The translations under genes were made by a program, and so were the position numbers. This document shows positions 5,770-30,739 of a stretch of DNA of 51,031 bases, one piece after another. How positions within the stretch are numbered: the first letter of the stretch is position 1; each line of letters starts with the position of its first letter. The notes under the pieces are model-generated. The model had not been told where the DNA came from. It worked only from the letters and a program-made list of their open reading frames with translations, and made no database searches. The DNA comes from Colwellia sp. (GTDB lineage Bacteria > Pseudomonadota > Gammaproteobacteria > Enterobacterales > Alteromonadaceae): contig JABSOX010000037.1 of the NCBI GenBank assembly GCA_013215655.1, forward strand, positions 1 to 51,031. The letters are read 5' to 3'.

Positions 5770-5780
5770 GCGTGGACATC

Positions 5781-6396: not shown

Positions 6397-6412
6397 GTAC
6401 AAGGAGAGTTCG

Positions 6413-6920: not shown

Positions 6921-6969
6921 TTTTTACCCAGTGATGAATGACTCATATTATAATTGCCGCAACAGTAGT

Positions 6970-7398: not shown

Positions 7399-7464
7399 GC
7401 CTGATGTTAAATCCTTTGCTTTATCTAGGTACGTCTACGTACATAGAAAACCCATTCTGAATAG

Positions 7465-8244
7465 TTAAATAAAACCCAACCAACCCATACTATGACTATA
7501 TTTAATTAACATACCAAAACACATTACTACCACTAACAATCTTAGGTATTTAGGGTTTATTGAAAATAAACAATGTGAACCTATCCAAGCGCCGATAACT
7601 TGTCCTAACATCATCACCAAACCAATAGCCCAAACAATTTTACCAGCAATTAAAAAGACAATCAGTGAGGCAATATTGGTGGCAAAGTTGAGTGTTTTGG
7701 CAATAGCCGTTGCATCGATAATGCCATGGCCACGTAAAGAAATTCCCGCTAGCGAAAAAAATGAGCCAGTGCCGGGACCAAAAAAACCATCATAACAACC
7801 GATAGTGGGTACCACGATATTTTGATAACGACGTTTAGATATCTTTGGTTCTTTTTGTTGGTTACTGGCTGTTGGAGAGATTAAAAAATATAGACCAATA
7901 AAGCAAATCACGATTGGGATCACATAAGTTAACATTTCTTGGTCAACAAATTGCACGGCGATAGTGCCGAATATCGCGCCAATAAATGCCAATAACATCA
8001 GTTTTTTTACTTCATGCCATTTTACTCTTTTATTTTTTAACATCATAACGCTGGCGGTTGCTGTGCCCATACTGCCTTGTAATTTATTAGTGCCTAATGC
8101 AGCTAAAGGTGGTACGCCACTTAGAATTAATGCGGGCAGTGCAATTAAGCCACCGCCACCGGCTAAGGTATCTAATAATCCTGCGACTATGGCAACAACA
8201 AATAAAATGGCTAGCAGTTCAGTAGTGACTTGTGCAAATTCCAT
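7465..8244 (-). CDS. TSUP-family permease (TauE/SafE, YfcA-like)
   Basis: A 259-residue inner-membrane protein with seven to eight hydrophobic segments. It carries the TSUP signatures GLLDTLAGGGGLIALPAL near the N-terminus and GCYDGFFGPGTGSFF in the middle, closest in pattern to E. coli YfcA. The family exports or takes up sulfite, organosulfonates or other small anions; the substrate of YfcA-type proteins is unclear. The ATG at 8244 is preferred to that at 8250 because AGAGAGA lies six bases before it. It stands alone between the TonB remnant and the S41 gene. Confidence 0.85.
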   Translation of the reverse strand: MEFAQVTTELLAILFVVAIVAGLLDTLAGGGGLIALPALILSGVPPLAALGTNKLQGSMGTATASVMMLKNKRVKWHEVKKLMLLAFIGAIFGTIAVQFVDQEMLTYVIPIVICFIGLYFLISPTASNQQKEPKISKRRYQNIVVPTIGCYDGFFGPGTGSFFSLAGISLRGHGIIDATAIAKTLNFATNIASLIVFLIAGKIVWAIGLVMMLGQVIGAWIGSHCLFSINPKYLRLLVVVMCFGMLIKYSHSMGWLGFI

Positions 8245-8276
8245 TAACATTCTCTCTAGTTAGAATTGTATTTAAA

Positions 8277-8309
8277 CGATTATTAGGCAAAATCATTGAC
8301 TAATAATCG
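8277..8309. repeat. Inverted repeat between S41 and TSUP genes
   Basis: CGATTATTAG (8277-8286) and CTAATAATCG (8300-8309) form a perfect 10-bp stem with a 13-nt loop. It lies downstream of the S41 gene and upstream of the TSUP gene, both on the minus strand, and could be a terminator or attenuator. No clear T-run follows. Confidence 0.5.
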
Positions 8310-8324
8310 TGGGGGAAAATTTTA

Positions 8325-9686: not shown

Positions 9687-9810
9687 ATTTTATCCTTGTA
9701 TTTATTTTTAGTAACTTTTTAGTAGCTTCTTAGTGAGTGAAAACATTGTAGCAAAACTTTGTTTGGTCTAAAATTAACAAATACTAACTCTATGATTAGG
9801 TTCTACCTTA

Positions 9811-10731
9811 ATGATAAATAGTGATGATCTACGTTTTTTTCGAGTAATAGCAACTCATTCTTCGTTAGCTGCAACGGCGCGATCTTTGAATGTAACACCG
9901 CCAACCATTACTCAGCGCCTACAAATAATAGAAAGAAAACTACAACTAAAATTAGTTGATAGACATGCGCGCAGTATCACTTTAACGGATGAGGGTATAT
10001 TACTTGCCGAGCGAGCAAAACTCATTTTAGAAGAAATTGATGATTTGCATGAATCTATATATAGCCAACGTAACGAAGTCGCTGGTTGTTTGAAAATATT
10101 GGCACCACTCGGTTTTGGCAGTAAATATATTGCGCCGTTAGTTACACAATTTCAGCAACAACATCAAAACCTAGCGGTAGAACTTGAGTTATCAGACAAC
10201 CCTGATTGGGCGGCAGACCATTCGTGGGACATTATGATCTATATTGGCGAATTGCGTGATTCGTCTTTGCGACTTTCTGTATTAGCCCCTAATAAACGTT
10301 TTTTATGCGCGTCACCTAGTTATCTTGAAAAATATGGCGAGGTTTTAGGTGAGATTAAAGAACCTGCTGATTTACGTCATCACCATTGCATAGCACTAAG
10401 AGAGAATGCTGAGGACGTTACCATGTGGAAATTTAATATTCCTATCATTGATAAACATCAATCAATTCGTATTACGCCTAAACTTGCCAGTAATGATGGC
10501 CGTGTTATTAAGCAGTGGGCATTGGAAGGACATGGAATTATTCTACGATCTGAGTGGGATGTTGCTGCTGAATTAAAAAGTGGCGATTTAGTGCAACTAT
10601 TAAATGACTATGAATTACCGTCGGCTAATATTGTTGCACTACTCGGCACAGAACAGCGTGCACGAGCAGGCAGAACAACTAAGTTTCTTGAATTACTTAA
10701 AAATAACATTGGCGCACAGCCTTGGTATTAG
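9811..10731 (+). CDS. LysR-family transcriptional regulator
   Basis: A 306-residue LysR regulator. The N-terminal winged helix-turn-helix (DDLRFFRVIATHSSLAATAR, SLNVTPPTITQRLQIIERKL) is followed by the two-lobed periplasmic-binding-like effector domain (about 90-295; GYELPSANIV region near the end, as in the DsdC/AaeR-like group). It is divergent from the S41 peptidase gene, and LysR genes often control the divergent neighbour. It converges on pfaD, from which it is separated by a 10-bp perfect hairpin. The effector is unknown. Confidence 0.9.
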   Translation: MINSDDLRFFRVIATHSSLAATARSLNVTPPTITQRLQIIERKLQLKLVDRHARSITLTDEGILLAERAKLILEEIDDLHESIYSQRNEVAGCLKILAPLGFGSKYIAPLVTQFQQQHQNLAVELELSDNPDWAADHSWDIMIYIGELRDSSLRLSVLAPNKRFLCASPSYLEKYGEVLGEIKEPADLRHHHCIALRENAEDVTMWKFNIPIIDKHQSIRITPKLASNDGRVIKQWALEGHGIILRSEWDVAAELKSGDLVQLLNDYELPSANIVALLGTEQRARAGRTTKFLELLKNNIGAQPWY

Positions 10732-10797
10732 TAATGATAGTTGGGTTTGAATACCAGACAACAAAGCCATTTTCGCGGTTCTCGGTGTTATCTTTAT

Positions 10798-10823
10798 GTA
10801 TCCAATAACCAGCTATTGGATAC
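10798..10823. terminator. Hairpin between convergent lysR and pfaD
   Basis: GTATCCAATA (10798-10807) and TATTGGATAC (10814-10823) form a perfect 10-bp stem with loop ACCAGC. It lies in the 106-bp gap between the convergent genes and probably serves as a two-way terminator, though the T-runs are weak. Confidence 0.5.
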
Positions 10824-10837
10824 GTAAAGATGTTTTG

Positions 10838-12430
10838 TTAACAAGGAATATAACGACTAAGATCAGTACTTAAACTAACGCCTTGACGCTTCAGCTGATT
10901 AATACGTTCAAGATAAGCCGCACCTTTCAATAAATGCATCGCCACATCAACAACCTGACGCTGGGTATAGTCTGCAAGGTAAGTATCTTTAACCCAACTG
11001 TTAAAAGCCCCCATGGAAGGGCCAGCCCAAATTTGATAATCCATCTCACGGCCTTGTTCTCCGTCATTTGACCAGCGCGAAGATAGACCAAGATACCAGC
11101 GAAAAATTAATGCCATTTTACGCTTTGGACTTTTCATCGCACGAGCCAACATATCAGGATCACGCTCTTGGAAAAAGCTCGCTGTACCTGCCCAGATATC
11201 ATCTAAGCTTTGACGGAATATTTGCTTTTCGACTTTTTCACGTTCTGCCACAGGAATATCTTCAATTGAATCGTAAGATACATAAAGATCATACAATTTG
11301 TTAGCTCGCATGGCGAACATGGAGCCACGTTTTAGTACTTGAAGCTTAACGCCCATTTCAAACATATCTGCAGCAGGCGCCATAGTCACATCAGCCATTT
11401 CTATGGTTGCGAGTAGTTTGCGCGTATGTTCAGATGCACCAGCTTCTACACAAGATTGATTCACCGAACCCAATACAAGATAAGCTGCTCCCATATTAAA
11501 GCCTGCGAGGGCTGACTCAGGAGTTCCTATGCCTCCTCCAGCACCTACTCTGAGAGCTTGGGCATAGTTGTATTTCCTTTGGATTTCATCTCTTAAGGTG
11601 ATGATTGAAGGCAGTAAGGTTAGAAATGGACGGTTATCAGTATGTCCGCCTGAATCAGCTTCAGCAGTAATATCATCCGCCATGGGAACCGTCTTAGATA
11701 ACTCAACTTGTTCCTCGGTAATTTTACCTTGGGCCAAAAGTTTGTTGATTAGTTTGATCGGTGCTGGCTCCATAAAGCGACGAGCTACTTCAGTCCGAGA
11801 AATTTTTGCGATTACTTTATGTCCGATATGGGTTGTACCATCGGCATTTCTGGTTAAACCTGCCAGACGGTACCAGACGATATGCTCGGTAAGTGCTAAA
11901 TAAGCTGACGCTTCAACGGTCTTAACACCGAGTTTTAAAAAGCGTTCAACTGCACCTCTCTCCAAAGCTTCTTCCGCGGGAGCATGGATAAGGTTTACGG
12001 CATAAGGACCATCAGGCAACTCAGCTTGAATGCGCTTTATGGCGTCTTCTACGGCATCGGGTACAAGACCGGCAGCGCCGAAAGAGCATAATAAACCTGC
12101 TTTACCTAAGGCGATGACCATTTCCACAGAAGCAATACCATTGGCCATGGCGCCACCATGATATGCGTATTTTACGCCGTGATGTTTCTTATATTCATCA
12201 TCACCTAAATCTTCTGGTGTTAGAGATTGTGCGAAGGCCAAAACCTTTTCAGATCCCGATGTCGAAAGCTTATTACAAACCCCTAGATTTTTTGTATTTG
12301 CCACGTAAACAGGTTGCTCTAGATCCATCAAGGCATTTTTGATAGCAGAGTCATCAGCTAGTAAGGTACTACCCTCTACCTGCCACGACCAATCGATAGC
12401 TTTATTGTTATTAAATTCAATGCTCGACAT
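10838..12430 (-). CDS. pfaD: PUFA synthase enoyl reductase PfaD
   Basis: A 530-residue FMN-dependent TIM-barrel protein of the nitronate monooxygenase/2-nitropropane dioxygenase type, the trans-acting enoyl reductase of bacterial EPA/DHA synthases. Family features include GGAMANGIASVEMVIALGKA near the N-terminus, LRVGAGGGIGTPESALAGFN and AAYLVLGSVNQSCVEAGASE (flavin phosphate site), and a PfaD-specific C-terminal helical part. It reduces the enoyl intermediates made by the PfaC dehydratases. It is the last gene of the pfa operon, 69 bp behind pfaC. Length and order match Shewanella and Moritella loci. Confidence 0.95.
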   Translation of the reverse strand: MSSIEFNNNKAIDWSWQVEGSTLLADDSAIKNALMDLEQPVYVANTKNLGVCNKLSTSGSEKVLAFAQSLTPEDLGDDEYKKHHGVKYAYHGGAMANGIASVEMVIALGKAGLLCSFGAAGLVPDAVEDAIKRIQAELPDGPYAVNLIHAPAEEALERGAVERFLKLGVKTVEASAYLALTEHIVWYRLAGLTRNADGTTHIGHKVIAKISRTEVARRFMEPAPIKLINKLLAQGKITEEQVELSKTVPMADDITAEADSGGHTDNRPFLTLLPSIITLRDEIQRKYNYAQALRVGAGGGIGTPESALAGFNMGAAYLVLGSVNQSCVEAGASEHTRKLLATIEMADVTMAPAADMFEMGVKLQVLKRGSMFAMRANKLYDLYVSYDSIEDIPVAEREKVEKQIFRQSLDDIWAGTASFFQERDPDMLARAMKSPKRKMALIFRWYLGLSSRWSNDGEQGREMDYQIWAGPSMGAFNSWVKDTYLADYTQRQVVDVAMHLLKGAAYLERINQLKRQGVSLSTDLSRYIPC

Positions 12431-12475: not shown

Positions 12476-12511
12476 TTAAGCTTCGACTTAGGCTTCGACC
12501 TACGCTTCGAC
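12476..12511 (-). repeat. Three 12-bp tandem repeats spanning the pfaC stop codon
   Basis: On the minus strand GTCGAAGC(G/C/T)TA(G/A) is repeated three times in register. Each unit reads Val-Glu-Ala-stop, so pfaC ends with the same three codons and a stop codon three times in the same frame. Two extra stop codons therefore back up the true one. Confidence 0.85.
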
Positions 12512-15500
12512 AATGCTCAGCACAATATCTTTAATGTGATAAATTCTTAAGCCATCTTTTGATAAGTTTGCATTACCAATAATTCTAATTTCATCTTTTT
12601 CTTTGATGATTTCAGTGATGTGTACATCTAACGACATCTGTTTATTAACGGGTGTGATTTGTCCACGATATTTCCAGACAACTTCCGTTGCAGGAGCGAT
12701 AAATCGTGGGTTGGTAAAATCCTTACCGAGATTATTTTTAACTGCGTAGGTTTGCAGTAGCTCAATAATCGCTTCTACTCCAAGTGAACCAGGCATGACC
12801 GGATCTTGATGGAAATGGTAACGGAAGAACCAGTCTGTTGGGTCGATGGTGCGTTCACCATAGATATAGGCAACAGCGGCTACATCACCACCTTCACCGC
12901 CTCCTTCAACAATGGAAACCGTATCAATAAAGTTCATTTGCCCACCCGCAAGTCGATAATGAGGTTTTCCTTCGGGTGCTTTAAATAAAGCCAAGTCCTT
13001 ATTGGTTAAATCAAATACTTCGATATCTTTTTCCGGTGTCTTATTATCAACAAACCAGGCATGGGTAATTTTACCATTATCAATACCTAATTGGTTGGTC
13101 AGCGACTCGCCACTGAAATATCCGAAGACGGCTTTACCTGTGTAGAAAACGTCACCCTCTACGGATAATTCAAAGGTGAAACTCTGGATGATGGCACCAC
13201 CAGCGATACTGGTGCTAACCAGTACTGATTTATTGACGATAGTTTTGCCACGTAAATCGATTTGTTTTACCAGTTTCCCCGTGCCATCAAGATTTCTGAA
13301 GAACAGATCTTTTTCAGGGTACTTTAACGTTGTTCCCATATAGCCGGAGATAAAGCCATTCGGTTGCAGTGCTATTTCCATAATGAGGGAATAAGGCATC
13401 CAAGACGGGTGACTATTTTTTGTGAAGTACCAAGCGTCTTCAGGAACATAATATTCAGCGATACAACTAGAAGGTTTTTTCAGATCCAGTCGTGTGCCTT
13501 GCACTTCAACTACCTGAGTTACAACTTGTAACTCCCCACAAGGTGTACGTGGTGGAATACGTCCTTCATAGACATCGAAGTCAGCACCAAAACAATTTGA
13601 GATGTTGCCGGTAGCAAATTCAAACATGTGCCAAGGTGTAAAAGGCGCAGTATTAGGCGTTCTATTAGCTCCTTCAACATCAGGTGCTGAAAAATGTTTA
13701 ATCGGTGTTACCCCCTTGATTGTCGGGGCGTTCAAATCAGACTCAACCCGCATTAAAGGGCGAGTTGGATGAGCAAAAGGAAATCTTCCTGTTTCATCCA
13801 AAGTTTCTGCGACAGTAGTAAGTGCAGCAACTGGTGCGACATCAACAGTCGTTGGTGCTGATTGAGCAATATTATCTAAAACATAATCAGGTAACTGCAC
13901 CGGATAAGGTGAGTTCTCTGTTTGTTCATCGATCATGATGCACAGATTTTTGAAATCAACAACCACTTTGCCATCGAGAATAATATCAATGTTCGCTTTC
14001 AAGAAGGGCTGAGGGTGCATGCCCATCTCAGTAACTTCCATGCGGTACGTTAAGGTATTTGACTGAGGTATTACCTGACCGCGACATCTCACGGTTTGTG
14101 ATTCTCCCTTCATCGGTTGGAAACGGGCATTATTTACATTGCCGTTCATACCAAGCCACAACATAAAGAACATCGCCATTTGTCCACAACCTTCAGACAT
14201 CAGTGATCCTGCCATTACTTCATCACCCTTAAAGTGACAAGGAAAGTACCAGTGATCAGGCTCGAGATCTTTTTGACCTTCAAGTAAACCTAGACCCCAA
14301 TGTCCACCTTGGGGATCAATTTTTGTAATACGCTCAATCATCAAGAATTTTTCAGATGAGAATTTAAGCGATGGATTTCTACCACCTTGGTTGTACTCAA
14401 TGCCAAAGCAACCCGCGATATCACCATCAACCAACTTCATCATATCTTGATAGGTATATTCAGTTTGTTTGTTTTCAATTAGCGGTTTGAAAGTGCTTTT
14501 CTTCGCTTCAGCCAGCTGGGTCTTATCGGCGTCATTATGAATAACACCTTTACCGTCGGCTAATTCTTCATCAGTAAAGAAACCTGCACAACCGTTACGC
14601 ATTTCCAGCACTACCTTGCCATTTACATAGCAATCATAGTGGAAGAAGAACAATAACTGGTCGCCATTTCTAGCATAAGAATCGATGGTGATTTCGTAGC
14701 GCAAAGTCTCACCACCAAAGGCCATATCTTCTTTGAAAGTTAATTCACAATCCAGTAGTCGATAAATTCGCTCACTCTTCGCTTGGAAATCAATACCAAT
14801 ATAGGAAATCAACATCAAGTCACATTGACCTGATTCTACTGCCACTGACCAAGGAATTTGTCCATCGATTAAGAAGGGTGCATCGGTGGGAACATCATAT
14901 TCCGTCGCCATAGTTGATTTTTTGTATTCATTGATCTTGGCATCAAGATCCGTAACTCGTGTTACTAATAAATAATCGGTAGTCGGCAGTCTTACACGAC
15001 GGGCGTAATTGTCGATAATGGCATATTCGTCACCAAATACTTTGGCTATATCACCTTCTGCAAACTCAACTAAATCAGCTTGGTTGTAAATAATGTTGGT
15101 CGGTTGATTGTATCGTTCAATTAAATTTAAAGCAGGGTAATCATGACCAACAGGCCCTTTGATTTTAAATCCTGAAGCCGTATCGGCAACAACGACTGCT
15201 TGCTTGCTAACCACGTTCAACTCTGGGGTTGATGATCCTGCATGCAGCTCAGCTTGCATGCTAATCATTTGCGATATCTGTTGTTGGGCAACTTGCCGGG
15301 ATTTTAAAAAGGCTTGATGAGTTGCTGTTTGTTGATAAATTTCTTTACTGACTGAATTTTTCACGGGTGTTCCTACTGCGGTACGAGTGAGGATAATGGG
15401 TTTGTGTTGCGCTTTAATCGGTGACAAATTTATTGCTGGTCCGGCAGCCGTTGTTATGAGTTTTTTAGGTGACAAGTTGCTCATATCAATAGGTCGAGAC

Positions 15501-18337
15501 ACAGCATTTAACGTCTTAGCAATAACTTGTTGCTTGATTTGAGCAAAGGATGAAACCGCTGTGCTCTCAGCTGCACTAGTAACAATTGATGACGATATTG
15601 ACGGGCCACCTAAGGTGATATTTTTAATTAACGCAGGACGTTTTTTAACATTAGCTAGTGCTGGTGCTGTTTGATGTTTTGACTGGGTTGAGGACATAAT
15701 CACATGACAAGCATTGTCATCTTTTCCTAAGCCACTGATAGCCATATGAGTATGGTGTTTATCATCTAGGCTACTTTTATCATCAAGTAAAAGCGCTGTT
15801 TTAATAAGACTCGCCATGCCCGAGGCATTAAACGTATGACCAATGTTGGATTTAACCGAACTGATTTTCTTGGCTGGATAGAGCTTAGCTAAAGCTGTTT
15901 TTTCTGCCATGTTTTCTGCAGGAAAGCCACTGGCATGAGCTTCAATCTGTGTTATATCAGCGGCTGTAATGTTAGCAAAACTTAACGCATTTTGAGCGGC
16001 TTTTTCTATACTCGCAGCATCACTTCCTTGCACAAACCCTAAAGCATTAATCTTTGCATAGACCCTGTCTGCAGTAACATCAGATTGTGGTTTAACAACG
16101 ATGGCGGCGGCACCTTCCCCCACTAGCCATTGACTTCTGTTTAAGACATCAGCGGCTAAGACATCCTTTGCTTGAGAGGCATCGGCTGGCTCTGCATTTA
16201 AAGAAACGGCGCCAAAATGCTGTCTGAGTGTTATATTCTCTATAGAGCCGGCCAGATCAACACTCGCAACAATCACCGCTTCCACATTGGAGGTTCTAAA
16301 TAAATTATCCGCTAATTCGACACAGCGATAAACAGAGTTTTCTTCGGCAGAAACCGTAATGGCGGGCCCTGAGAAATCCCAAAGGGAAGATATTCTTGAG
16401 GCCATAATGTTACCAATAAAACTGGTATATTGGTTTAGTTGAGCTGCTGAGGCGACACCGTCTTTGGCAATCGTTGTGAGTTGATTTTTCTGCTCCACGG
16501 TTAAGTGAATACCCTGCTGATGTAGGCTATCTTCTATCTGGGTAGTTAGGTTTACTCGACCACGATATTGATGTAATTCTAATTCAATACCCATGGCGAC
16601 TAAGACAGCTACATTGCTACCTTCTACAAGACCTGCATCTTTGGCCGCGTTATCCGCAACACTCATCATCATCAGTTGTTGTGGGATTAAACAATCTTGT
16701 TTATTTGGAGGCACTTTAAAACGTAAGAAATCAATATCAAATTCTTCAACATATCCACCCCGAGGAGCTTTCGATAACTGCAAAGCAGCCATTACACTGC
16801 TATCTGTTTCCATGCCTTTCCAACGCTCAGTGGGTAGTTCACGGAAAGTATTTTGATTGTTATCAAGTAGTGATTTAAATTCGCTTAAATTCTTCGCGCT
16901 ACCAAAGTGAGCGTCCATACCGATAATCGCTAATGGCTGTGATTGTTTGGCTTCTACAAACTTAGATTGCAAAACTTGTGTAGGTTCTTGCAATACCACA
17001 TGAGCGTTACTGCCACCAAAGCCAAAAACACTGACGCCTGCGGTTTTTGCTTGGCCTTTAGTATCAGGCCAAGGAACAGTTTCTGTAGGCATCTGTTCAG
17101 CAGCAAAGTATCCCGTGGGTGAGTTCATCGCTTGGTTAAGATTAATGGTTGCTGGAATTTCACCATGTTTTAATGACAAAATTGCTTTGGTCATACCCGG
17201 CATACCCGCCGCGGTAAGTAGATGTCCCAAGTTAGATTTTACAGAACCAAGCAAAGGTTTATTGCCATATTCTTTGAAAAAGGTTTCCATGGAGGTTAAT
17301 TCAACCTTGTCACCTTTTGGTGTACCAGTCGCGTGACACTCCACATAATGCACGTTAGCAGGATTTACATCGGCATCTTGATAGGCTCGTTGATAAGCTA
17401 ATACTTGACCTTTGGTATTAGGACTTAATACAAACTCACCTTTGCCGTCGTTGGTCAGGGCACCACCCTTGATAATCGCGTGAATAGTATCGCCATCACG
17501 TACCGCATCACTGTGCCGTTTCAATACCATCATGCCCGCACCTTCGCCTGCGAACAGGCCTCGTGAGGTTTTATCAAAAGGTGCGTGTATATTATTGCCT
17601 GGATAAGCCTGGAAGATAGAGAAACCCATATTCACAAACATCGGATCAGCACCGGAGACTGCTCCCGCTAACATCATATTTGCTTTTCCTGTGTGTAAAT
17701 AATCACAGGCTAGTTTTACTGAATAGCAAGATGAAGCGCAGGCTGCATCAAGGGAAAAATTCGCTCCGCCTAGTTTTGCTGCTTTTGCCAATAAAGCGGA
17801 AGGATAACCGGCAACCAGTGCGTTATCAGGATGTACTGATTTGTGCTCAGTAAAATGACTTAATTGAAAATCATTGTTTAAAACTTGTTTTAAACTGTTA
17901 TCTACTACTTTATTGTAGATGGGCATAAATAGATGGTTAGATGACTTGGTTGGAAAAGATAAGTTTCCTAAAATGACGCCACAATTTTTAAGGGCATCAC
18001 TTTGCCAATAACCAGCATCTTTTAGAGCATCTCTGGTTACGGTGAGTGACCATTGGTGAAGATCATCCATCTGTTCTAAATAACTGCTAGCGACTGCAAA
18101 ACCCGATGAATCAAATTGTGCATCACGGATATAACCACCCTGAATACAATAAAATTTGTCATCTTCACCTTTTTTACCATAGTATTTATCGGGATCAACA
18201 CCCATTTGCTCGGCTGTAGCTTTTGAGCGACAGTCTTCTTTATTAAGCATTTTTTGCCAAAATTCTTCCGGGGCACTTGAGCCTGGAAATAAATTTGCTA
18301 TACCTACTACGGCGATGTCTTCCATACTTTTTGTCAT
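12500..18337 (-). CDS. pfaC: PUFA synthase subunit PfaC (KS-CLF-DH-DH)
   Basis: A 1945-residue multidomain synthase subunit. Residues about 5-455 form a ketosynthase with active-site Cys in DAACASSCYSVKLA and the His motifs VECHATGTPKGD and VKSNLGHLLTAAG. A second KS-like domain (about 465-900) has SAEENSVYR in place of the Cys motif and is the chain-length factor. A Pro/Ala/Ser-rich linker follows. Then come FabA-like hotdog dehydratase/isomerase domains, with HFKGDEVMAGS near 1367 and HFHQDPVMPGS near 1841. The DH domains place the methylene-interrupted double bonds. It lies 21 bp behind pfaB, with a tandem-repeat stop at its 3' end. Confidence 0.95.
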   Translation of the reverse strand: MTKSMEDIAVVGIANLFPGSSAPEEFWQKMLNKEDCRSKATAEQMGVDPDKYYGKKGEDDKFYCIQGGYIRDAQFDSSGFAVASSYLEQMDDLHQWSLTVTRDALKDAGYWQSDALKNCGVILGNLSFPTKSSNHLFMPIYNKVVDNSLKQVLNNDFQLSHFTEHKSVHPDNALVAGYPSALLAKAAKLGGANFSLDAACASSCYSVKLACDYLHTGKANMMLAGAVSGADPMFVNMGFSIFQAYPGNNIHAPFDKTSRGLFAGEGAGMMVLKRHSDAVRDGDTIHAIIKGGALTNDGKGEFVLSPNTKGQVLAYQRAYQDADVNPANVHYVECHATGTPKGDKVELTSMETFFKEYGNKPLLGSVKSNLGHLLTAAGMPGMTKAILSLKHGEIPATINLNQAMNSPTGYFAAEQMPTETVPWPDTKGQAKTAGVSVFGFGGSNAHVVLQEPTQVLQSKFVEAKQSQPLAIIGMDAHFGSAKNLSEFKSLLDNNQNTFRELPTERWKGMETDSSVMAALQLSKAPRGGYVEEFDIDFLRFKVPPNKQDCLIPQQLMMMSVADNAAKDAGLVEGSNVAVLVAMGIELELHQYRGRVNLTTQIEDSLHQQGIHLTVEQKNQLTTIAKDGVASAAQLNQYTSFIGNIMASRISSLWDFSGPAITVSAEENSVYRCVELADNLFRTSNVEAVIVASVDLAGSIENITLRQHFGAVSLNAEPADASQAKDVLAADVLNRSQWLVGEGAAAIVVKPQSDVTADRVYAKINALGFVQGSDAASIEKAAQNALSFANITAADITQIEAHASGFPAENMAEKTALAKLYPAKKISSVKSNIGHTFNASGMASLIKTALLLDDKSSLDDKHHTHMAISGLGKDDNACHVIMSSTQSKHQTAPALANVKKRPALIKNITLGGPSISSSIVTSAAESTAVSSFAQIKQQVIAKTLNAVSRPIDMSNLSPKKLITTAAGPAINLSPIKAQHKPIILTRTAVGTPVKNSVSKEIYQQTATHQAFLKSRQVAQQQISQMISMQAELHAGSSTPELNVVSKQAVVVADTASGFKIKGPVGHDYPALNLIERYNQPTNIIYNQADLVEFAEGDIAKVFGDEYAIIDNYARRVRLPTTDYLLVTRVTDLDAKINEYKKSTMATEYDVPTDAPFLIDGQIPWSVAVESGQCDLMLISYIGIDFQAKSERIYRLLDCELTFKEDMAFGGETLRYEITIDSYARNGDQLLFFFHYDCYVNGKVVLEMRNGCAGFFTDEELADGKGVIHNDADKTQLAEAKKSTFKPLIENKQTEYTYQDMMKLVDGDIAGCFGIEYNQGGRNPSLKFSSEKFLMIERITKIDPQGGHWGLGLLEGQKDLEPDHWYFPCHFKGDEVMAGSLMSEGCGQMAMFFMLWLGMNGNVNNARFQPMKGESQTVRCRGQVIPQSNTLTYRMEVTEMGMHPQPFLKANIDIILDGKVVVDFKNLCIMIDEQTENSPYPVQLPDYVLDNIAQSAPTTVDVAPVAALTTVAETLDETGRFPFAHPTRPLMRVESDLNAPTIKGVTPIKHFSAPDVEGANRTPNTAPFTPWHMFEFATGNISNCFGADFDVYEGRIPPRTPCGELQVVTQVVEVQGTRLDLKKPSSCIAEYYVPEDAWYFTKNSHPSWMPYSLIMEIALQPNGFISGYMGTTLKYPEKDLFFRNLDGTGKLVKQIDLRGKTIVNKSVLVSTSIAGGAIIQSFTFELSVEGDVFYTGKAVFGYFSGESLTNQLGIDNGKITHAWFVDNKTPEKDIEVFDLTNKDLALFKAPEGKPHYRLAGGQMNFIDTVSIVEGGGEGGDVAAVAYIYGERTIDPTDWFFRYHFHQDPVMPGSLGVEAIIELLQTYAVKNNLGKDFTNPRFIAPATEVVWKYRGQITPVNKQMSLDVHITEIIKEKDEIRIIGNANLSKDGLRIYHIKDIVLSIVEA

Positions 18338-18358: not shown

Positions 18359-21013
18359 TTAATTCGCTTTATCAACGACTATTGAGCCGTTATATATTGT
18401 ATCTAAGTCTGCTTCTACACCGTGGCTGATTAGTTTTGCTAGCGCTCGGATATAAGTTAATTCGTCACTAGTACCTTTAGCGTTTACGGGTACAGATACA
18501 TGGGATTTTGGTTCATTTTGTTTAGGTTCATGGTGCTTTAAAATTTTATCTGTCCAACTGCATAATGATCTTCCGGGTCCCATTTCTATGAAAACTCTAG
18601 CGCCCTTGTCATGCAGGCTATTCACTAGTCTTGGGAAGTCCACTTGATCACAAAGACATTTGGCAATGCTGTTTGCTATGGCCTTGGTACGATGAGGAAT
18701 AGGTAAGTAACATGAGCTTGAGAACATTTTAGTTTTTATTCGCTCGGTTACGTCCATGGTAAATAGCGTGACCATGTCGGTGTAATCTGCGTGGGCAGGT
18801 GAGCTGTGGATAGCGTTTGGCATATCCATGGCCATACTTCGTACCCCGAGATTTTTTATAACTCTTTCACAGGCTTCTGGGTAGCCACCAATCAATAAGT
18901 TGTCGGGTGTATTGATGATAGTGCAGTAAACACGATCTTCATCCTTAGCCGCTGCAGTCACTTCATCGAGTGTTGCTCTTATGCTATAGGTTTCCCAAAT
19001 TTTTCCGTCATGGGCATTTTTCTTCTGTTGCTTTTCCTTCGGCTGATCGTCAAAGGGAGCATCTAATTTTAAATCCCATAGGGTTCTTAGCGTGGTGAGA
19101 TCACCTGAAAGTCTATTATTGAAGGTTTCTGAATTAGCAAGTCTGGCGCTCATTTGACCTGGATTTACCCAGCAACCTAGGGCGGCATACATGCTCACTT
19201 CACCCATGCTATAACCTGCTGAATAGTCTGCGTAGATCTTAAAGACGTTTTCAAAAATTTTGGTGAATACACAAGCGAAAGCAACTCCGCATTCACCTAT
19301 ATCGGCAAGATTATTTCTTAAATCGCTATCTAATTGCTTTAATTGTTTGAAGTCTAGTGCTGAAATACTTCTTGGATTAAGCTTTGTATCTTTTAAGGTG
19401 GCGCCAATGTCATCTGCTAGAGCCGCTATGGGTTGATAAATTTCAGGGAAAAGATGAAAGAGATCACGACCAAGTCCTACATAGGTTGCTCCTATGCCAG
19501 GATAGAAAAAGGCGACCTTGTTGTTTGTGCCATTTTTATTAGCATTTTTTAAATCACCTTTTAACTTATCTTTTAACTTATCTTTTAAAGTGACGGGTGT
19601 GGCGGTGAAAAAACTTCCCTTGGGGGTTTTCCATTCTTTTTGCTTATTAAGGTTTTGTTCATTCAGGGTCCGTTCCTTAAAGGTATTAACTACCCCCACC
19701 TTGGCGAGGGTTATTTCTTTCATTAAATCTTCAGCAGTTTCAGCGATTAAACTCAATCGATAAACAGACTCTTTAGTTGATTTAAACGTCTCATAACAAT
19801 CATGAGCGATATAATTCACCGTTATTGAAGAGTCTCCAGCAATGATTTCCTGAACAACTTCGGTTAGCGCATCAAGTTTGGAGAGTAATTCTGGTTGCTC
19901 ATTAAAAGTCAGTAAAATTAATGATAGATCGCTACAAGCCATATAGCCGTTACTGCGAACATCGCGTGCAATATTTTCTGACCGTTCTTCCTGTAAAACC
20001 ACATGGCAATAACTGTCATCAGACATACAACTGAAAGCTGCTGTATGAACATCACCCTTTGAGTTTGGGTACCAAGGGCGAGCCTCAGTAGGAAAATAAA
20101 ATACCGATGATAACCAGTTGTCTAACTTATCTTCAAAAGGACTTTTCCAATCATTTAAACCCGGAATATACTGTTGCTGAAGTGAGATAACGGTTTTTAG
20201 TAGTCCTGCAACTTGAGAGAAGCCATAACCTTCTCCTGTAACACTTCTAGTACAACTAATTGCCGTGTGAAGTTTCAGTGAGTCTTCTGAATTATTCGCG
20301 TAGCTACTAAAAATTGCCTCGAGCTCTGCTAAGCTATCCTGGTGATCAGCTAAAGCCGATACTTCTAATAAGGTAATTTTCTCGGCAGAAACGTCTGCTT
20401 TTTCTATAGCGTTGGAAATTATGTTGGAAATGTCAGTACTACTTAATTCCTTATTAGCAAACTCACAACCATCAACAGATTTAATCCAACTATATACATA
20501 ACAAGAGTGTTTGTTTGCATGTTGAGCAGACGATAATAATACGCCTGCAAGACCTTCAATTTCTTGGTACTCCCCAAAGCTTTGATCATAGGAGATAGTC
20601 GCTTGTGCAGTGTTATCATTAATTGATTCAGCTAGCAAATTCACACCTAAAAGAGCAACCATTTTAGTCTGGTCATCATCTATAATGGTTGAAGCTTTGA
20701 CAAGTGCATTGTAAAGATTAGTAACAACTGCTAAGGATGAAAAACTATCCCTAAAAGTGTTATCAAGTTGACACACTTGCTGGCTAATAATAATGACATT
20801 AAGCTCTTCAGCTGCAACTTGATTAGCCTTCGCCAACCGATTAAGAGACGCTGTACAAAGCTCGGTCAAATCCTGTGGCTTGGTTAAGTGATGTTGCTTT
20901 GTTGGTTTGCCTTGGTAGAAGGCGCGCTCAACACGATCAATGTTGAGCTCAGCACCAAACAAAGCATCAAGACCAATAACAGCTAATTTATTTAATGTTG
21001 TTGTTTTATCCAT
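18359..21013 (-). CDS. pfaB: PUFA synthase subunit PfaB (acyltransferase)
   Basis: An 884-residue PfaB. The N-terminal 340 residues resemble a degenerate ketosynthase (LAVIGLDALFGAELNIDRVE) without an active-site Cys motif. The acyltransferase domain lies at about 500-830, with FFYPGIGATYVGLGRDLF and the nucleophile elbow GYSMGEVSMYAALG near residue 600. PfaB loads acyl groups and is known to influence whether EPA or DHA is made. The gene sits between the PfaA DH cistron (8-bp gap) and pfaC (21-bp gap), in one operon. A KLKDKLKDKLKG run near 475-490 comes from a short in-frame repeat in the linker. Confidence 0.93.
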   Translation of the reverse strand: MDKTTTLNKLAVIGLDALFGAELNIDRVERAFYQGKPTKQHHLTKPQDLTELCTASLNRLAKANQVAAEELNVIIISQQVCQLDNTFRDSFSSLAVVTNLYNALVKASTIIDDDQTKMVALLGVNLLAESINDNTAQATISYDQSFGEYQEIEGLAGVLLSSAQHANKHSCYVYSWIKSVDGCEFANKELSSTDISNIISNAIEKADVSAEKITLLEVSALADHQDSLAELEAIFSSYANNSEDSLKLHTAISCTRSVTGEGYGFSQVAGLLKTVISLQQQYIPGLNDWKSPFEDKLDNWLSSVFYFPTEARPWYPNSKGDVHTAAFSCMSDDSYCHVVLQEERSENIARDVRSNGYMACSDLSLILLTFNEQPELLSKLDALTEVVQEIIAGDSSITVNYIAHDCYETFKSTKESVYRLSLIAETAEDLMKEITLAKVGVVNTFKERTLNEQNLNKQKEWKTPKGSFFTATPVTLKDKLKDKLKGDLKNANKNGTNNKVAFFYPGIGATYVGLGRDLFHLFPEIYQPIAALADDIGATLKDTKLNPRSISALDFKQLKQLDSDLRNNLADIGECGVAFACVFTKIFENVFKIYADYSAGYSMGEVSMYAALGCWVNPGQMSARLANSETFNNRLSGDLTTLRTLWDLKLDAPFDDQPKEKQQKKNAHDGKIWETYSIRATLDEVTAAAKDEDRVYCTIINTPDNLLIGGYPEACERVIKNLGVRSMAMDMPNAIHSSPAHADYTDMVTLFTMDVTERIKTKMFSSSCYLPIPHRTKAIANSIAKCLCDQVDFPRLVNSLHDKGARVFIEMGPGRSLCSWTDKILKHHEPKQNEPKSHVSVPVNAKGTSDELTYIRALAKLISHGVEADLDTIYNGSIVVDKAN

Positions 21014-21021: not shown

Positions 21022-21933
21022 TTACAGTCCTGATATCTTTTCTTGTCGGTTTTCTGAGCTAGGTTTAAATAAATCATTTAAATTTTCACTCACCGTTACT
21101 TCCGCTGATTTAATTTCTGCAAGGAGTTTTTTGTCTTCACTTATCAGTGAAATATCAGCAACAAATTTGGTTGAACTATGTTCAACCACCTTAAGTTGTA
21201 GATAAAACAGTTCATTAGCTTTAACTTGCTGATAACTCGTCCAACTCTTAGTTAAAGAGGGCAGAGAGCCCATAGATAATTGCTTTCTTACCCAAACAAG
21301 CATCGCTTGATAAACCAAATCATTAGCAAAGACATTATGCAGTTCAAGAGGGAAGTCCCCCTGTTTATTCATTGCAATTTCTGGAACTTGGCATTTAAGC
21401 AACAAGCCCTTTTCATCACAATGAAGTATTTCTTGGATGCCCTGCAAGCTCTCACCATGAAACAAGGTTCCATTAGTATAAAGCTGATGTGCTTCTTCTT
21501 CCGCTGCTTTAGCATTGCTGTGATTCTGAGTGCTCTGGGTGGTTGCTAGCTCAACATCTGCTAATGATACTTTTTGAGATGTGGGTTTTAACAACAGCTC
21601 ACCGCCATAATGAAACACCGCTTTACCCCTAGCATTTAAACTCGATATTTTTGCATCAAGTTTTAAATAAGGGCTGCTTTCATTTACATTATCATTTAAG
21701 TGCTGCTCAATAACCTTCACATCTATCTGATAATCAGTGGCCTCTGTGCCATCAAAAACAACACCTTTAAAAAGCTTGTATTTTTCAAGGCTATGAAACT
21801 TATAACCACTAAAAATCGATTCAGCAGCGTCCGTCATCCATGCCATAGCACAGACGGTGGGAAGTACCGCATTATCACCAATCATATGATCGTTTAGAAA
21901 GTCGTTATCAACCGCTTGTATTGTTTTTATCAA
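21022..21933 (-). CDS. PfaA C-terminal dehydratase domain in the -1 frame
   Basis: A 303-residue reading frame with a polyketide-type hotdog dehydratase domain: NDFLNDHMIGDNAVLPTVCA at residues about 9-28 and LFHGESLQGIQEI near 157. In Shewanella and Moritella this domain ends PfaA. Here the frame opens only behind a TGA at 21969-21967 and its first start codon is TTG, in a TTGA overlap with the pfaA stop. No Shine-Dalgarno precedes the TTG. Reading through the A AAA AAG heptamer with a -1 slip joins it to PfaA without a stop (total about 2560 residues). It may thus be a frameshift extension, a coupled cistron, or the result of a lost A. Confidence 0.85.
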   Translation of the reverse strand: MIKTIQAVDNDFLNDHMIGDNAVLPTVCAMAWMTDAAESIFSGYKFHSLEKYKLFKGVVFDGTEATDYQIDVKVIEQHLNDNVNESSPYLKLDAKISSLNARGKAVFHYGGELLLKPTSQKVSLADVELATTQSTQNHSNAKAAEEEAHQLYTNGTLFHGESLQGIQEILHCDEKGLLLKCQVPEIAMNKQGDFPLELHNVFANDLVYQAMLVWVRKQLSMGSLPSLTKSWTSYQQVKANELFYLQLKVVEHSSTKFVADISLISEDKKLLAEIKSAEVTVSENLNDLFKPSSENRQEKISGL

Positions 21934-21971
21934 ACGGCTTGTTGTAACTTTTTTTCGGGGGAACCCTCACC
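21912..21971 (-). promoter_or_regulatory. Candidate programmed -1 frameshift site at the pfaA 3' end
   Basis: On the minus strand, GGTGAGGG (21971-21964) is followed after 9 nt by the heptamer A AAA AAG (21954-21948), placed in the correct zero frame (GAA AAA AAG). After 10 nt comes a stem CCGTTTG (21937-21931) / CAAGCGG (21918-21912) with one G-U pair and a 12-nt loop. The pfaA stop lies in the loop side of the stem. SD, heptamer and stem are the three parts of the E. coli dnaX frameshift signal. Confidence 0.6.
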
Positions 21972-24900
21972 CGTTGATTGCTCACTTGATAGGTCATTTC
22001 CTACCAATATTTGTGGGCAACGATTGCCATCAGCTGCAAGTTCGTTAAGCATCAGATCAGCACCGGCATCCAGAGGAATAATGTAAACACCACGTTCATT
22101 AAACATGCGTTTTAAATCCGCTGTGACCATACCACCATCCCAAGGCCCCCAGTTAAAACTCAATACTTGAGTTTTAGGGTGCAAGGCTTTATATCTGAAA
22201 GCTGTCTTGTTAAGAATCTCATTAGCGATGGCATAGTCAGATTGACCAGGGTTACCATAAAATCCTGCTGCTGATGAAAACAGCACTAAATGTTTAATGT
22301 TTTCTTCTTTTGCACAAGCAAGAAGTGAAACTAAGCCATCAACTTTGGTACGATAAACCGCATTAAATTCTTCAAGGGTTTTCTGCTCAATAAACTTATC
22401 AGCTAGAACACCTGCGCCGTGAATAATGCCAGTCACATCACCAAACTTTGTAATCACTGATTGCGTGGCGGATTTTACCGCTTTGCTATCAGTAACATCC
22501 GCAGAAATATATTCAACTTGTCCGCCAACAGCCGTGATGGCATCAAGAGTTTGAGTGATTTCGCGGTTTGCAAGAATCGGTTTAATTGCTTGGTTGATTT
22601 TTGCAGGTGTAGGTTTATCACCTGCATCTAACATAGATTGCATCGCTGCTTTCTTAAGATCAGCCTCTGCAATTATTCCATGTGCCCAACTAGGCTCAGA
22701 CTTTTCATAGACAGAACGACCAAGTAAAATAAACTTTGATTGATACTGCTTAGCCAAACGAATAACACAATGAGCTGTTACGCCCTTAGCACCACCACTA
22801 ACGAGAAATACTGAATTATTATCTATGTTATTGCCTGCGGTTAAAGTGTAACTATCAGTTACTTCACCAATGAGTGTTAGTCGCCCTTGTTTATCATGGG
22901 CAACTTCAACCAGATCAGTATCAACATCAAGAAATTCGTCAGCAACTAAGTTGGCTACTTTATCAATACCAAACTTAGCTGATACATCGACAGCACGGCA
23001 GAATACTTGTGGCCACTCATGAGCAAGCGTTTTAACCAGACCGTTTAAACCACTTTGTACTAAATCAGTATTAAGCTCATCTGATTCAACGCCTAGACTT
23101 CCTTGACGTGTCACCACCATAAAGCTCGAACGGCTAACACCAGACGTTTTACTCACATCACAATGCTTGGCTAAGAGGAAAGCTAACATCAAACCTTGCT
23201 TTGAATGTTCAGGATATTCCACACCATTAATGGTGGTTTTAGGCTGCATATAAATCACAGCTGATAAATCTCCAACTGCACTGATGATTGCTTGAATAGC
23301 TTCATCTTCAACGGTGTTCAACTCAACAACCTTCACTGATTTAGGAAAAGCCTTTTTAGAAGCAACCCAACTTGGTTTGATGACAGTAACTTTATATCCT
23401 TCTTCAACAAAGTTAGCAGCAAGCTTTTGTGTGCAGCCCGTGCCATCATCAACAAGCAGTAGTTTTTCACCTTTAACAGCCTGTTCAATTTTATTGACCG
23501 ATGCAAGTCGTTTTATAACAACAGTTGCACTGGGTGCTGGTTGTACTGGGCTTTTGACTATCGCTGATGCTTGTTCAGTTGATACTATCGTTGTGTTACT
23601 AAAGATATTAACGATTTCGCCCAAAGTACGCATTTCTGCTAAGGTTTCAGGTTCTACTTCTGGTAGACCTGCCATGGTATCTTGAACAGCACCGAGTATT
23701 TCAACACGCTTGATAGAATCAATGCCTAGATCGGCTTCCATATCCATATCAAGTTCTAACATTTCTGTTGGATAGCCAGTTTTTTCAGCAACAACCATCA
23801 TAAGATTTTTAGTGAATAACTCAGGAGTAACCATTACTTGTGAATTAACAAGTTCAGAGCTTACAGCTTCTATTTCAGGAGCTACGGCTAAATGACTAAC
23901 ATCACCTTGAGGTGTAGCTTTGGACTTCATATAAGTAACGATTTCGCCGAGTGTTCTTAGTTCTGCTAAATCTTCAGGATTAAGTTCTGGTAAGTCGGGA
24001 ATTAATTCTTGTACGCCACCCAAAATTTCCACACGTTTAATCGAGTCGATACCAAGATCAGCTTCCATGTCCATTTCAAGCTCAAGCATTTCTGGTGGGT
24101 AGCCGGTCTTCTCTGAGACAACTTCCATCATGGTATTTTGAATCATATCTAAATCAATAACAGCAGCTGAAGAAGTTTCCACAACGGATAGTTCAGGAGT
24201 TGAGATCTCTGCTATGGCTGCCGCTTTTGATTTCATATAATCAACGATTTCGCCGAGGGTTCTTAGCTCAGCCAAATCTTCTGGATTAAGTTCTGGAAGA
24301 TCAGGGATTAACTCCTGAACAGCCCCTAGAATTTCAACACGCTTAATGGAGTCGATACCAAGGTCCGCTTCCATGTCCATGTCAAGTTCAAGCATCTCTG
24401 GTGGGTAGCCAGTTTTATCTGCAACCACATCCATCATGATGGATTGAATCGTATCTAAATCTATGGTGCTCGTTGCAACAACCGCTAGCACAGGAGTAGA
24501 GGCAACAGGTGCTGCTGTTGTAATAGATGAAGAAGCAACACTAGAGGCTTTAGACTTCATATAATCAACGATTTCGCCCAACGTTCTTAGCTCAACTAAA
24601 TCTTCAGGGTTAAGTTCAGGTAAATCAGGAATGAGTTCTTGAACTGCCCCTAGAATTTCAACGCGTTTAATGGAGTCGATACCGAGATCCGCTTCCATGT
24701 CCATGTCAAGTTCGAGCATTTCAGGTGGGTAGCCAGTTTTATCTGCAACGACATCCATCATGATCGATTGAATCTTATCGGTATCGATAGTACTCGTTAC
24801 CACAACGGCGAGAACAGGAGTAGAGACAGTAGGTACTTGAGTTGAAGCGACACTAGACGCTTTAGACTTCATATAATCAACGATTTCGCCCAACGTTCTT

Positions 24901-28698: not shown

Positions 28699-29508
28699 TT
28701 ATTCCGTTTTAAATTTAATACTGGTTTCTTTCTCGTCATCAAAATAGGCGTCATCAGAGTTAGTCTGATCAATTGCTTCATCCAATAGTCGAAATCGACT
28801 TAGAAATTCATTGTAGTTTCCCGCCAAAATTCGACGGATGTGGAAAGGAGCTTTAGTAAGTACATGTCGCATATAACGACTAGCCGCTTCTTTTTCATCA
28901 CCATTATAAATATCAACATAGACCCAACCTGAGTTAGGGTCGTTAGCGATTAATAGACGGCGTTTACTTTTGTCCCCTTGAATTTCCGGTAATTTGGTTA
29001 CTTTCACTTGCACCACTTCACTGTCGTCTAGGCCGCTGGTGCTGTGAAGTAATTCTCTTATTGCTTCTGGTGATACATCAGAAAGTAGCACCTTATGATC
29101 AGCGGTATCTTCGATGGCAACTTGAATGGATTGGTTGGCATCAGGTGTGATGCCTGAGTCCTGTATATCGGCAAGTCTTGATACACCATGTCTTTTCAAA
29201 CAACGTTGTAAACCTGCACGTGATGCATTGACGTTAATAAAATTTTTGCAAACCTCGAGAAGTTCATCTAAGGAAAGTAGTAGCCGTTTTCTTAGTTCAA
29301 CAACCACATATTCTTGGGTAGTACTTAGTGTGGTATTAAGTTGTTTGGGCATGTGGGATTTATCATCCACCGAATCACGTTTACGCCATTTTCGAATAGT
29401 TGACTCTGATACTTTTAATAGGCGTGCTAGTACGGCTATGGGAAGATCCGATTCTCGAATAAAGACCCTCATTTCGGTTGTAGTCGTAGCGTTAGCGTGT
29501 TGTTTCAT
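28699..29508 (-). CDS. pfaR: PUFA locus regulator PfaR, IS481-transposase-like
   Basis: A 269-residue protein directly before pfaA, where Shewanella has the activator gene pfaR. Residues 21-45 form a helix-turn-helix (LPIAVLARLLKVSESTIRKW) and 95-116 a second DNA-binding part (SRAGLQRCLKRHGVSRLADI). From about 165 on, the order KVTKLPEI, then RLLIANDPNSGWVYVDIY, then FHIRRILAGNYNEF follows the integrase core of IS481 transposases. Where those have catalytic Asp (HIDV, LTDNG), this protein has K169 and G230, so it cannot be an active transposase. It should bind DNA and activate the pfa operon. Its stop lies four bases before the pfaA start. Confidence 0.88.
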   Translation of the reverse strand: MKQHANATTTTEMRVFIRESDLPIAVLARLLKVSESTIRKWRKRDSVDDKSHMPKQLNTTLSTTQEYVVVELRKRLLLSLDELLEVCKNFINVNASRAGLQRCLKRHGVSRLADIQDSGITPDANQSIQVAIEDTADHKVLLSDVSPEAIRELLHSTSGLDDSEVVQVKVTKLPEIQGDKSKRRLLIANDPNSGWVYVDIYNGDEKEAASRYMRHVLTKAPFHIRRILAGNYNEFLSRFRLLDEAIDQTNSDDAYFDDEKETSIKFKTE

Positions 29509-29929: not shown

Positions 29930-30739
29930 GTGCATAATTTGGCCTACACTAAACCAAGTTTAAAAGCTGATGAATACCATATTTGGTATACCAAGCCACA
30001 ACTTGGCCGTAATTTAGATTTATACCAACGATATAAGCAGCTATTGACTGCACAGGAAATTGAAAAGCAGCAGCGCTATATCTTTGAAAAAGATCGCCAT
30101 GACGCGCTAGTTACGAGGGCCTTTATCCGTAATGTGTTATCTCAATATATACCTAAAGCTCCTGAAGACTGGCGATTTACAAAGGGTGAGTATGGAAAAC
30201 CTGAAATTATTGACCCTAGCTTACCCCTTAGGTTTAACATCAGTCATACAAAAGATCTTATTGTCTGCGCCATAACGCTAGTTAATGATATTGGCTGTGA
30301 TGTGGAATATATTGAGCGAAAAAGTGACATACTTGCTATAGCCAATCGATATTTCTCCAAGCTTGAAACTAGAGAATTATTTCGTTTGCCTGAAGCTGAG
30401 CAAAGAAGTCGATTTTTTGATTACTGGACTTTAAAAGAGTCATATATTAAAGCATGGGGACAGGGGTTAGCGATCCCATTAAGTGACTTTAGTTTTCATA
30501 TCGGTGAATCAAATTCAGCGAAAAAAAATACTAATATTAACTTAAGTTTTTCATCACAACGGGAAGATGATCCCAAGCGTTGGAAAAGCTGGATTTTTTA
30601 TCCAAATCAACAACATCGAATATCAGTTTCAATTCGCTCGGTGGCGACTCAGATAAAACATGATGACTATAAAGTGCGATTTTTTGAAACAACACCTCTG
30701 GTGAAATATCAAGAGCACTCTGAAATCATCTTAGAATAA
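29930..30739 (+). CDS. pfaE: 4'-phosphopantetheinyl transferase PfaE
   Basis: A 269-residue Sfp-type phosphopantetheinyl transferase that would activate the five PfaA ACPs from coenzyme A. Motifs in order: KGEYGKPEI (P1), RFNISHTKDLIVCAI (P2), IGCDVEYIER (P3 with Mg-binding Asp and Glu) and YWTLKESYIKAWGQGL with the W-KE--K signature. The start is GTG with AAAGGGAAT upstream. It is divergent from pfaR; Shewanella and Moritella often keep pfaE apart from the other pfa genes, so its place next to pfaR makes this locus complete. Confidence 0.93.
   Translation: MHNLAYTKPSLKADEYHIWYTKPQLGRNLDLYQRYKQLLTAQEIEKQQRYIFEKDRHDALVTRAFIRNVLSQYIPKAPEDWRFTKGEYGKPEIIDPSLPLRFNISHTKDLIVCAITLVNDIGCDVEYIERKSDILAIANRYFSKLETRELFRLPEAEQRSRFFDYWTLKESYIKAWGQGLAIPLSDFSFHIGESNSAKKNTNINLSFSSQREDDPKRWKSWIFYPNQQHRISVSIRSVATQIKHDDYKVRFFETTPLVKYQEHSEIILE

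Follow-up and report, generated by a model that had tools for sequence, protein, structure and literature searches.

A probable dnaX-type programmed −1 ribosomal frameshift between the KR and dehydratase domains of pfaA in Colwellia and its relatives

Introduction

To our knowledge, few programmed −1 frameshifts have been proven in non-mobile bacterial genes. In Escherichia coli dnaX, the −1 frame stops almost at once and slippage shortens the protein, as it would in most of the pfaA relatives considered here. The dnaX (tau/gamma) signal is composed of an internal SD sequence, the heptamer A AAA AAG and a downstream hairpin of 10 bp, all of which have counterparts in pfaA, and its frameshift efficiency is given as 50–80% (PMC7282821). 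Transposases of IS3/IS1 also use −1 frameshifting at a slippery heptamer with a stimulatory hairpin, and there the slip yields the long form (PMC4066793), as predicted for the locus described below. E. coli copA is a cellular gene, like pfaA, from which efficient −1 frameshifting gives a shorter product (PMC5009743). Frameshift screens list mostly untested candidates (PMC4066793). The starting set for the heptamer screen of that paper was 36 genomes, including 27 of E. coli, and proteins of 44–1426 aa are reported, so that pfaA is unlikely to have been in it. Searches for broken frames are said in the same source to overlook cases where slipping shortens the protein, and a frameshift in pfaA may have been overlooked for this reason.

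PfaA of Shewanella oneidensis MR-1 has the arrangement KS-MAT-ACPs-KR-PKS-like DH, as here, and is described as one form, with no frameshift mentioned in the available text (PMC4882568). Another survey gives PfaA as KS-MAT-ACP-KR, with no DH (PMC3098273). Searches of open-access papers returned no report of a frameshift in pfaA, and term searches of the accessible text of a 2016 recoding review and of the GeneTack paper did not return pfaA. The DNA analysed here is a stretch of 51,031 nt from a Colwellia sp. contig (JABSOX010000037.1, assembly GCA_013215655.1), hereafter the window. A preliminary description, made from its letters, had proposed that a −1 slip adds the dehydratase (DH) domain to PfaA.

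Results

Gene Content of the pfa Cluster

The pfa cluster occupies the minus strand of the window with pfaA, a separate-looking dehydratase frame, pfaB, pfaC and pfaD, and a pfaE-like transferase gene is divergent (Table 1). Pfam matches to KS, AT, tandem ACPs, KR and PKS-like DH, together with the adjoining pfaB, pfaC and pfaD, identified the large protein as the PfaA of a Pfa/PUFA synthase. The listed ORF of the DH frame begins at TTG 21933 (minus strand). Inspection by eye showed no SD-like sequence just before this TTG, in agreement with the preliminary description.

Table 1. Features of the pfa cluster and of the candidate frameshift site, in window coordinates.
Feature	Position	Strand	Remarks
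pfaA, zero frame, 2254 aa	21930..28694	−	KS, acyltransferase, five ACP stretches, KR (Pfam); C-terminus ...GSPEKKLQQAV, then stop
Open −1 frame with PKS-like dehydratase (DH)	21022..21966	−	Pfam PS-DH PF14765 above cut-off
pfaB	18359..21013	−	Pfam: KS-like match; acyltransferase match of 29.0 bits, below Pfam's 32.7
pfaC	12500..18337	−	Pfam: two KS and two FabA-like dehydratase stretches
pfaD	10838..12430	−	Pfam PfaD_N
pfaE-like phosphopantetheinyl transferase, divergent	29930..30739	+	Pfam ACPS
TGA closing the −1 frame upstream	21967..21969	−	Sets the 5' limit of the slip window
TGA terminating the zero frame (short PfaA)	21930..21932	−
Predicted slippery heptamer A AAA AAG, zero frame	21954-21948	−	Sole heptamer in the right phase within the 37-nt overlap
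SD-like GGTGAGGG	21971-21964	−	3' end 9 nt before the heptamer
Predicted stimulatory hairpin, 9 bp, 12-nt loop	21939-21931 with 21918-21910	−	AGCCGTTTG / CAAGCGGTT; begins 8 nt after the heptamer

Two other features were observed in the window. A 269-aa frame at 28699-29508 (minus strand), which stops 4 nt before pfaA and gave weak helix-turn-helix matches below Pfam cut-offs, is perhaps a regulator cotranscribed with pfaA; a 268-aa frame lies at the equivalent position upstream of pfaA in NORP44, the relative described below. A whole-window Rfam scan at gathering cut-offs matched only V_AS9 (RF02820, Vibrio RNA AS9), at 43473-43576 on the minus strand with 52.2 bits against a cut-off of 50.

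Candidate Slip Site

A slip could work only in the short overlap between the two TGA codons, as had been claimed, and this overlap measured 37 nt. The heptamer that had been pointed out in it is in the zero frame and is the sole in-phase one. In 78 related pfaA stretches, zero-frame A AAA AAG occurred off-site 27 times in 66,601 codons, which gives a chance of about 0.5% of finding it in a 12-codon overlap. The SD-like sequence GGTGAGGG was also found at the upstream distance first reported. The stem was likewise present downstream; however, the 7 bp originally described as starting 10 nt on are part of a 9-bp stem starting closer to the heptamer, with a predicted fold of −9.9 kcal/mol and a z-score of −3.7 against shuffles. 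A −1 slip at the heptamer would enter the DH domain without meeting a stop, as proposed, and would give a product of 2557 aa with the junction ...KK/VTTSRLIKT... (the slash marks the slip), compared with 2254 aa when no slip takes place.

Most relatives have A6 as the run of the heptamer; the window and NORP44 have A7. An Rfam scan of 21800-22100 produced no family match up to E 10, DnaX RF00382 included. RF00382 had no match in the window's own genome either, hence there is no dnaX yardstick in that genome.

The Same Split in NORP44

DNA-level searches returned no useful relative. Six exact 8-residue patterns scanned over genome contigs led to one close relative, the MAG NORP44 (L031, NVWF01000021.1), where pfaA (3552-10004) and the DH frame (10001-10885) show the same two-frame split as in the window. 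Its signal lies at the same place and comprises SD-like GATGAGGG with GAGGG kept, A AAA AAG, and a hairpin whose stem of 9 bp closes a loop of 12 nt (fold z −2.6). Between the two hairpins, a C-G pair changed to U-G and a G-U pair to G-C, both with pairing kept. The overlap of TTG and TGA (TTTGA) is present in both genomes.

The two clusters are far diverged, with identities at fourfold-degenerate sites of 0.545 for pfaA (877 sites), 0.511 for DH (94 sites), 0.525 for pfaB and 0.534 for pfaC. Over this distance the DH frame showed a dN of 0.081 and a dS of 0.820 (dN/dS about 0.10), which indicates that DH is translated and useful. The split and the signal are therefore shared by genomes whose fourfold sites are only 51–55% identical, with synonymous change close to saturation, and together with the low dN/dS of DH this argues that the split is neither an assembly error nor decay.

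Conservation of the Signal among Relatives

In a search of the family, a DH match was found in 28 of 395 genomes; among the other 27, it lay in one frame of more than 2,200 codons in 23 and in shorter frames in four. The order search matched 83 of 394 genomes, mostly inside one frame of more than 2,200 codons, and 11 of the 83 were not included among the fetched loci. The first sample was composed of the KR-DH linkers of 93 loci, and in most relatives pfaA is continuous in one frame. A zero-frame A AAA AAG was identified in 79 of these linkers (78 plus L069, whose frame breaks farther upstream), set in a stretch of variable amino acids and length. The site is thus a conserved zero-frame heptamer of the X XXY YYZ type.

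After a slip, the −1 frame would stop four codons on in 46 loci, two codons on in 26 and 5 to 11 codons on in six. A −1 stop within four codons was present in 72 of 78 loci compared with 37% of control positions in the same frames. In 25 rows of group B, the −1 stop was kept as TAA or TGA while the flanking residues changed (LN, PN, SN, PK, PE, PD). The outcome in the alternative frame is therefore conserved as well, as a −1 stop in the relatives and as a selected −1 extension in the window and NORP44.

Codon usage at the site was also examined. Off-site in the same frames, KK was written AAA AAG in 54 of 182 cases and had a preceding A in 27, compared with 78 of 78 at the site, where the rows had been selected for the heptamer. 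Among the 14 loci without the heptamer, KK occurred in the examined stretch of L027-L029 (after GAC or GAT), L113 (ACT AAG AAA, 3' of the aligned place) and L076 (inside DH), and none had KK with other codons at the aligned place as far as they could be aligned. When 190 codon columns were ranked by conservation over 73 rows, K AAG came first and K AAA second. For group A, the first two of 312 columns were S AGT and V GTT, the codons which carry the −1 TAG and the stem, with the two K columns at 13 and 14; for group B, A GCG of the 5' arm ranked first and the K columns third and fourth of 323.

Pairing with the anti-SD, calculated for 80 rows, was strongest, with a mean of −4.7 kcal/mol, for the 8-nt site whose end lies 7 nt upstream of the heptamer, while values over most of the 40 nt upstream were −0.5 to −1.5 kcal/mol. 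The best site averaged −4.9 kcal/mol versus −2.0 kcal/mol at 1571 control positions, and 59 of the 80 rows had an SD-like stimulator at −4 kcal/mol or lower versus 16% of controls. It was weak (above −3 kcal/mol) in 15 rows, in two of them at 0. SD-like stimulators of frameshifting are placed 6–17 nt upstream in PMC4066793, and the pfaA element falls within that range. A contiguous stem of at least 9 bp starting 4–10 nt downstream was found in 67 of the 80 rows compared with 5.3% of controls; it was missing in the other 13, in f21 rows through a G-G mismatch.

The preliminary description had asked for conservation of the A7 run together with the SD and had regarded relatives with A8 in one continuous frame as evidence against a frameshift. 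The zero-frame heptamer and the SD are indeed conserved, but the A7 run is not, being mostly A6. The continuous frame was observed, but it mostly has A6 in place of A8 and keeps the signal with a nearby −1 stop.

Covariation in the Hairpin

Two alignments were prepared, A1 with 24 of 25 rows (one duplicate removed) and A2 with 49 of 54 distinct group-A rows including the window and NORP44; L078, L083, L084, L108 and L109 were left out of A2 as too unlike to align. RNAalifold, unprompted, found a homologous helix in both, starting 6 nt after the heptamer. The named helix of A1 had 90.4% of its cells paired, seven of its ten pairs had changed on both sides, and its covariation was 0.420 compared with 0.190 ± 0.025 in shuffled alignments and at most 0.219 in slid controls. 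In A2, 90.6% of cells were paired, double-change cells numbered 16 versus 5.5 ± 2.0 shuffled, and covariation was 0.163 versus 0.126 ± 0.008 shuffled and at most 0.080 slid. Further pair types in A2 (14 versus 11.8 shuffled) were not striking, with 34 of 500 shuffles as high. The contrast was weaker in A2 because the helix varies little there. Overall, covariation supports a hairpin a few nucleotides downstream of the heptamer.

Second Sample

A second sample was used to test the rule on rows that had not produced it. It covered one genus, already present in the first sample, with 129 genomes, 117 of them with a match, and 79 further linkers, the remaining matches either belonging to the first sample or lying outside the fetched set. 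The heptamer was present in 75 of the 79, and all 75 had the −1 stop at codon 2 (56 TAA and 19 TGA). The misses were L225-L227, one subclade without KK, and L176, which is broken in the run. An SD at −4 kcal/mol or lower was found in 52 of the 75 rows versus 15% of controls.

Alignment A4 contained the 57 distinct rows among the 75, with the helix preset from A1. The preset helix was 86.1% paired and had 101 double-change cells versus 30.2 ± 8.0 shuffled. Its covariation was 0.499 compared with 0.225 ± 0.017 shuffled and at most 0.221 slid; none of 500 shuffles reached it, and P values overstate the support in these samples as their rows are related. One of the ten helix pairs was mostly unpaired (32 of 57 rows), and the helix as drawn does not fit L178 and L228-L230.

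Loci without the Signal and Rejected Splits

The 14 first-sample loci without A AAA AAG were five of a divergent PfaA type (L027-L030 and L110), eight f11 loci, and L113. The f11 losses (L071, L074-L076 and L079-L082) make up eight rows of a nine-row subclade; these eight keep DH and have neither KK nor the heptamer in the linker. DH is also kept in L225-L227, where the linker has no KK or heptamer, and both sets are apparent natural losses of the signal. At the aligned place, L113 carries A AAA AAC, with a −1 TAA at codon 4, so its signal may survive in another form with a variant slip site. Missing in 14 of 93 and 4 of 79 loci, A AAA AAG is not essential to every Pfa system.

Outside the order, A AAA AAG was absent from the linkers of nine loci of other gammaproteobacterial families and from those of two of five plasmid hits (Persicobacter and Streptomyces). 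Among loci outside the order, L122 has GGGTTTG in phase, and L116, a pfaA of another gammaproteobacterial family, has T TTT TTA in the zero frame of the KR-DH linker, perhaps an unrelated slip site.

Four further candidates for a split pfaA were rejected. In G625 (L069), heptamer and hairpin are intact and the break lies upstream of them, within the conserved tail of KR; it is either a mutation or a sequencing error. The frame of G424 starts within DH, where the contig ends, and G424 showed no KR; the short frame of G650 (424 aa) was taken as cut by a contig end. G1182 (L176) is a single-contig genome whose pfaA is broken within the run of the slip site; its close kin have intact copies, and the break is again either a mutation or a sequencing error.

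Origin of the Swapped Frame

In a DH tree of 100 rows with midpoint root, the window and NORP44 formed one clade (100/96) among heptamer-bearing rows, and the forks that place this pair had moderate support (93/79 and 87/87). The heptamer label required six changes on the tree versus 19.1 when shuffled. Taken with the absence of the heptamer from the loci read outside the order, the tree makes it look as if the signal was ancestral in the clade, was lost in some subclades and was frame-swapped once.

In the alignment, the pair has a net loss of 1 nt that lies 3' of the heptamer and 5' of the hairpin core; GTTAGT of the kin corresponds there to CAAGC or AAAGT in the pair. This loss removed the −1 TAG and led the zero frame to a stop. 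On the evidence of these sequences, the window carries a derived, frame-swapped version in which the predicted slip yields the long form, whereas in relatives with a continuous frame it yields the short one. The swapped arrangement is known from two genomes only, one of them a MAG.

Discussion

The observations are very probably best explained by a dnaX-type programmed −1 ribosomal frameshift in pfaA between KR and DH that results in two PfaA forms. At the level of sequence, the signal is documented by its phase, spacing, conservation and covariation, and by selection on the DH frame. The reading first proposed for the window has thus gained from the comparison, with split and signal recurring in NORP44 and the four-part signal in most linkers. 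A fraction of ribosomes would slip back by one base at A AAA AAG under the influence of the SD-like sequence and of the hairpin 6–8 nt downstream. In most relatives, the unshifted frame would encode the full PfaA with DH, and shifted ribosomes would stop within a few codons to leave PfaA without DH. In the window and NORP44, unshifted ribosomes would make PfaA without DH and shifted ribosomes PfaA with DH.

Overlap of a TTG and a stop codon is a common coupled arrangement. Ribosomes ending the short PfaA at the TGA could reinitiate at the overlapping TTG to give free DH, and the presence of TTTGA in both the window and NORP44 also suits such translational coupling. The lack of an SD near the TTG by eye speaks against it, as does the weakness of TTG as a start, and CGTTTG doubles as the 5' arm of the hairpin. 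Coupling also leaves unexplained the heptamer, the SD at frameshift distance and the hairpin, all of which are conserved in relatives without a second cistron. It is a very unlikely explanation of the locus, and reinitiation is a possible minor source of free DH. A signal that only made ribosomes pause after KR, so that folding is helped and few of them slip, would suit a site at a domain border, and hairpins do pause ribosomes (PMC7282821). However, pausing needs neither an invariant in-phase A AAA AAG nor a −1 stop conserved amid changing residues, and the DH of the window is fused only via the slip yet is under strong selection, which makes this role extremely unlikely.

Slippage of RNA polymerase on the A run could produce mixed mRNAs in place of ribosome slipping, as on the nine A of Thermus thermophilus dnaX (PMC1088944). 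The run is A7 in the window, shorter still in most relatives, and so falls below a homopolymer of about nine A/T; nine is also the length at which counter-selection is reported to be evident in a large proportion of genomes (PMC1088944). The invariant AAG and the phase point to tRNA re-pairing, and under polymerase slippage the SD and hairpin at ribosomal distances would be without role, so that we give this source of the two forms hardly any credence. An assembly error, or a recent 1-nt loss that broke pfaA and left DH decaying, is almost certainly not the cause. The window genome is a draft of 161 contigs, and one relative, L176, shows a frame break within the run; against this stand the same split in NORP44 and the selection on DH. 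The preliminary description had allowed for an A lost from an A8 run, but the net 1 nt by which the locus differs from its kin lies beyond the A run, 3' of the heptamer, and the relatives' shorter runs likewise count against it.

If the programmed frameshift is accepted, the frame swap could presumably have been tolerated only where useful amounts of the two products existed beforehand. This points to slippage of about one half, within reach of the efficiency given for dnaX in PMC7282821 (50–80%). We infer that slippage would occur at a substantial, dnaX-like rate of tens of percent and that both PfaA forms would be needed in similar amounts. The swap would invert the sign of any directional control, for example by cold, which makes such control less likely. 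PKS-like DH is reported to make trans-2-enoyl chains, which then undergo full reduction, and the cis double bonds retained in the product are attributed to FabA-like DHs (PMC9667614); on this chemistry, PfaA present in both forms, with DH and lacking it, could share cycles between two routes. The dose of DH would presumably set the share of cycles passing through trans-2 dehydration and full reduction versus the FabA-like DHs of PfaC. That frameshifting sets the ratio of PfaA chains with DH to those lacking it, and that this ratio helps to place the double bonds of EPA/DHA, is an evenly balanced proposal. On this view, the swap is a natural experiment that a lineage could bear only with slippage close to one half, where the ratio stays almost the same whichever frame is the default.

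The signal is conserved in most of the linkers read from one order, in an enzyme that makes EPA/DHA, and its presence implies two PfaA proteins. If this is true, yields and product profiles of recombinant Pfa systems would depend on a kept signal, above all in codon-optimised versions. The signal also gives a simple test of the role of the PKS-like DH of PfaA, and the subclades that lost it would be useful for comparing lipid profiles. In addition, pfaA offers an evolutionary case in which the zero and −1 frames of a single gene family have exchanged their roles.

Compared with the described systems, pfaA differs in several respects. Unlike dnaX, it is a different gene of unrelated sequence, with no RF00382 match, and it encodes a fatty-acid megasynthase that would either have or lack one catalytic domain. 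Unlike the transposases of IS3/IS1, it is a lipid-synthesis gene in which the slip product would be short in most relatives. Finally, unlike copA with its 70-aa product, the predicted frameshift in pfaA would drop or add one C-terminal domain of a protein of more than 2,500 aa.
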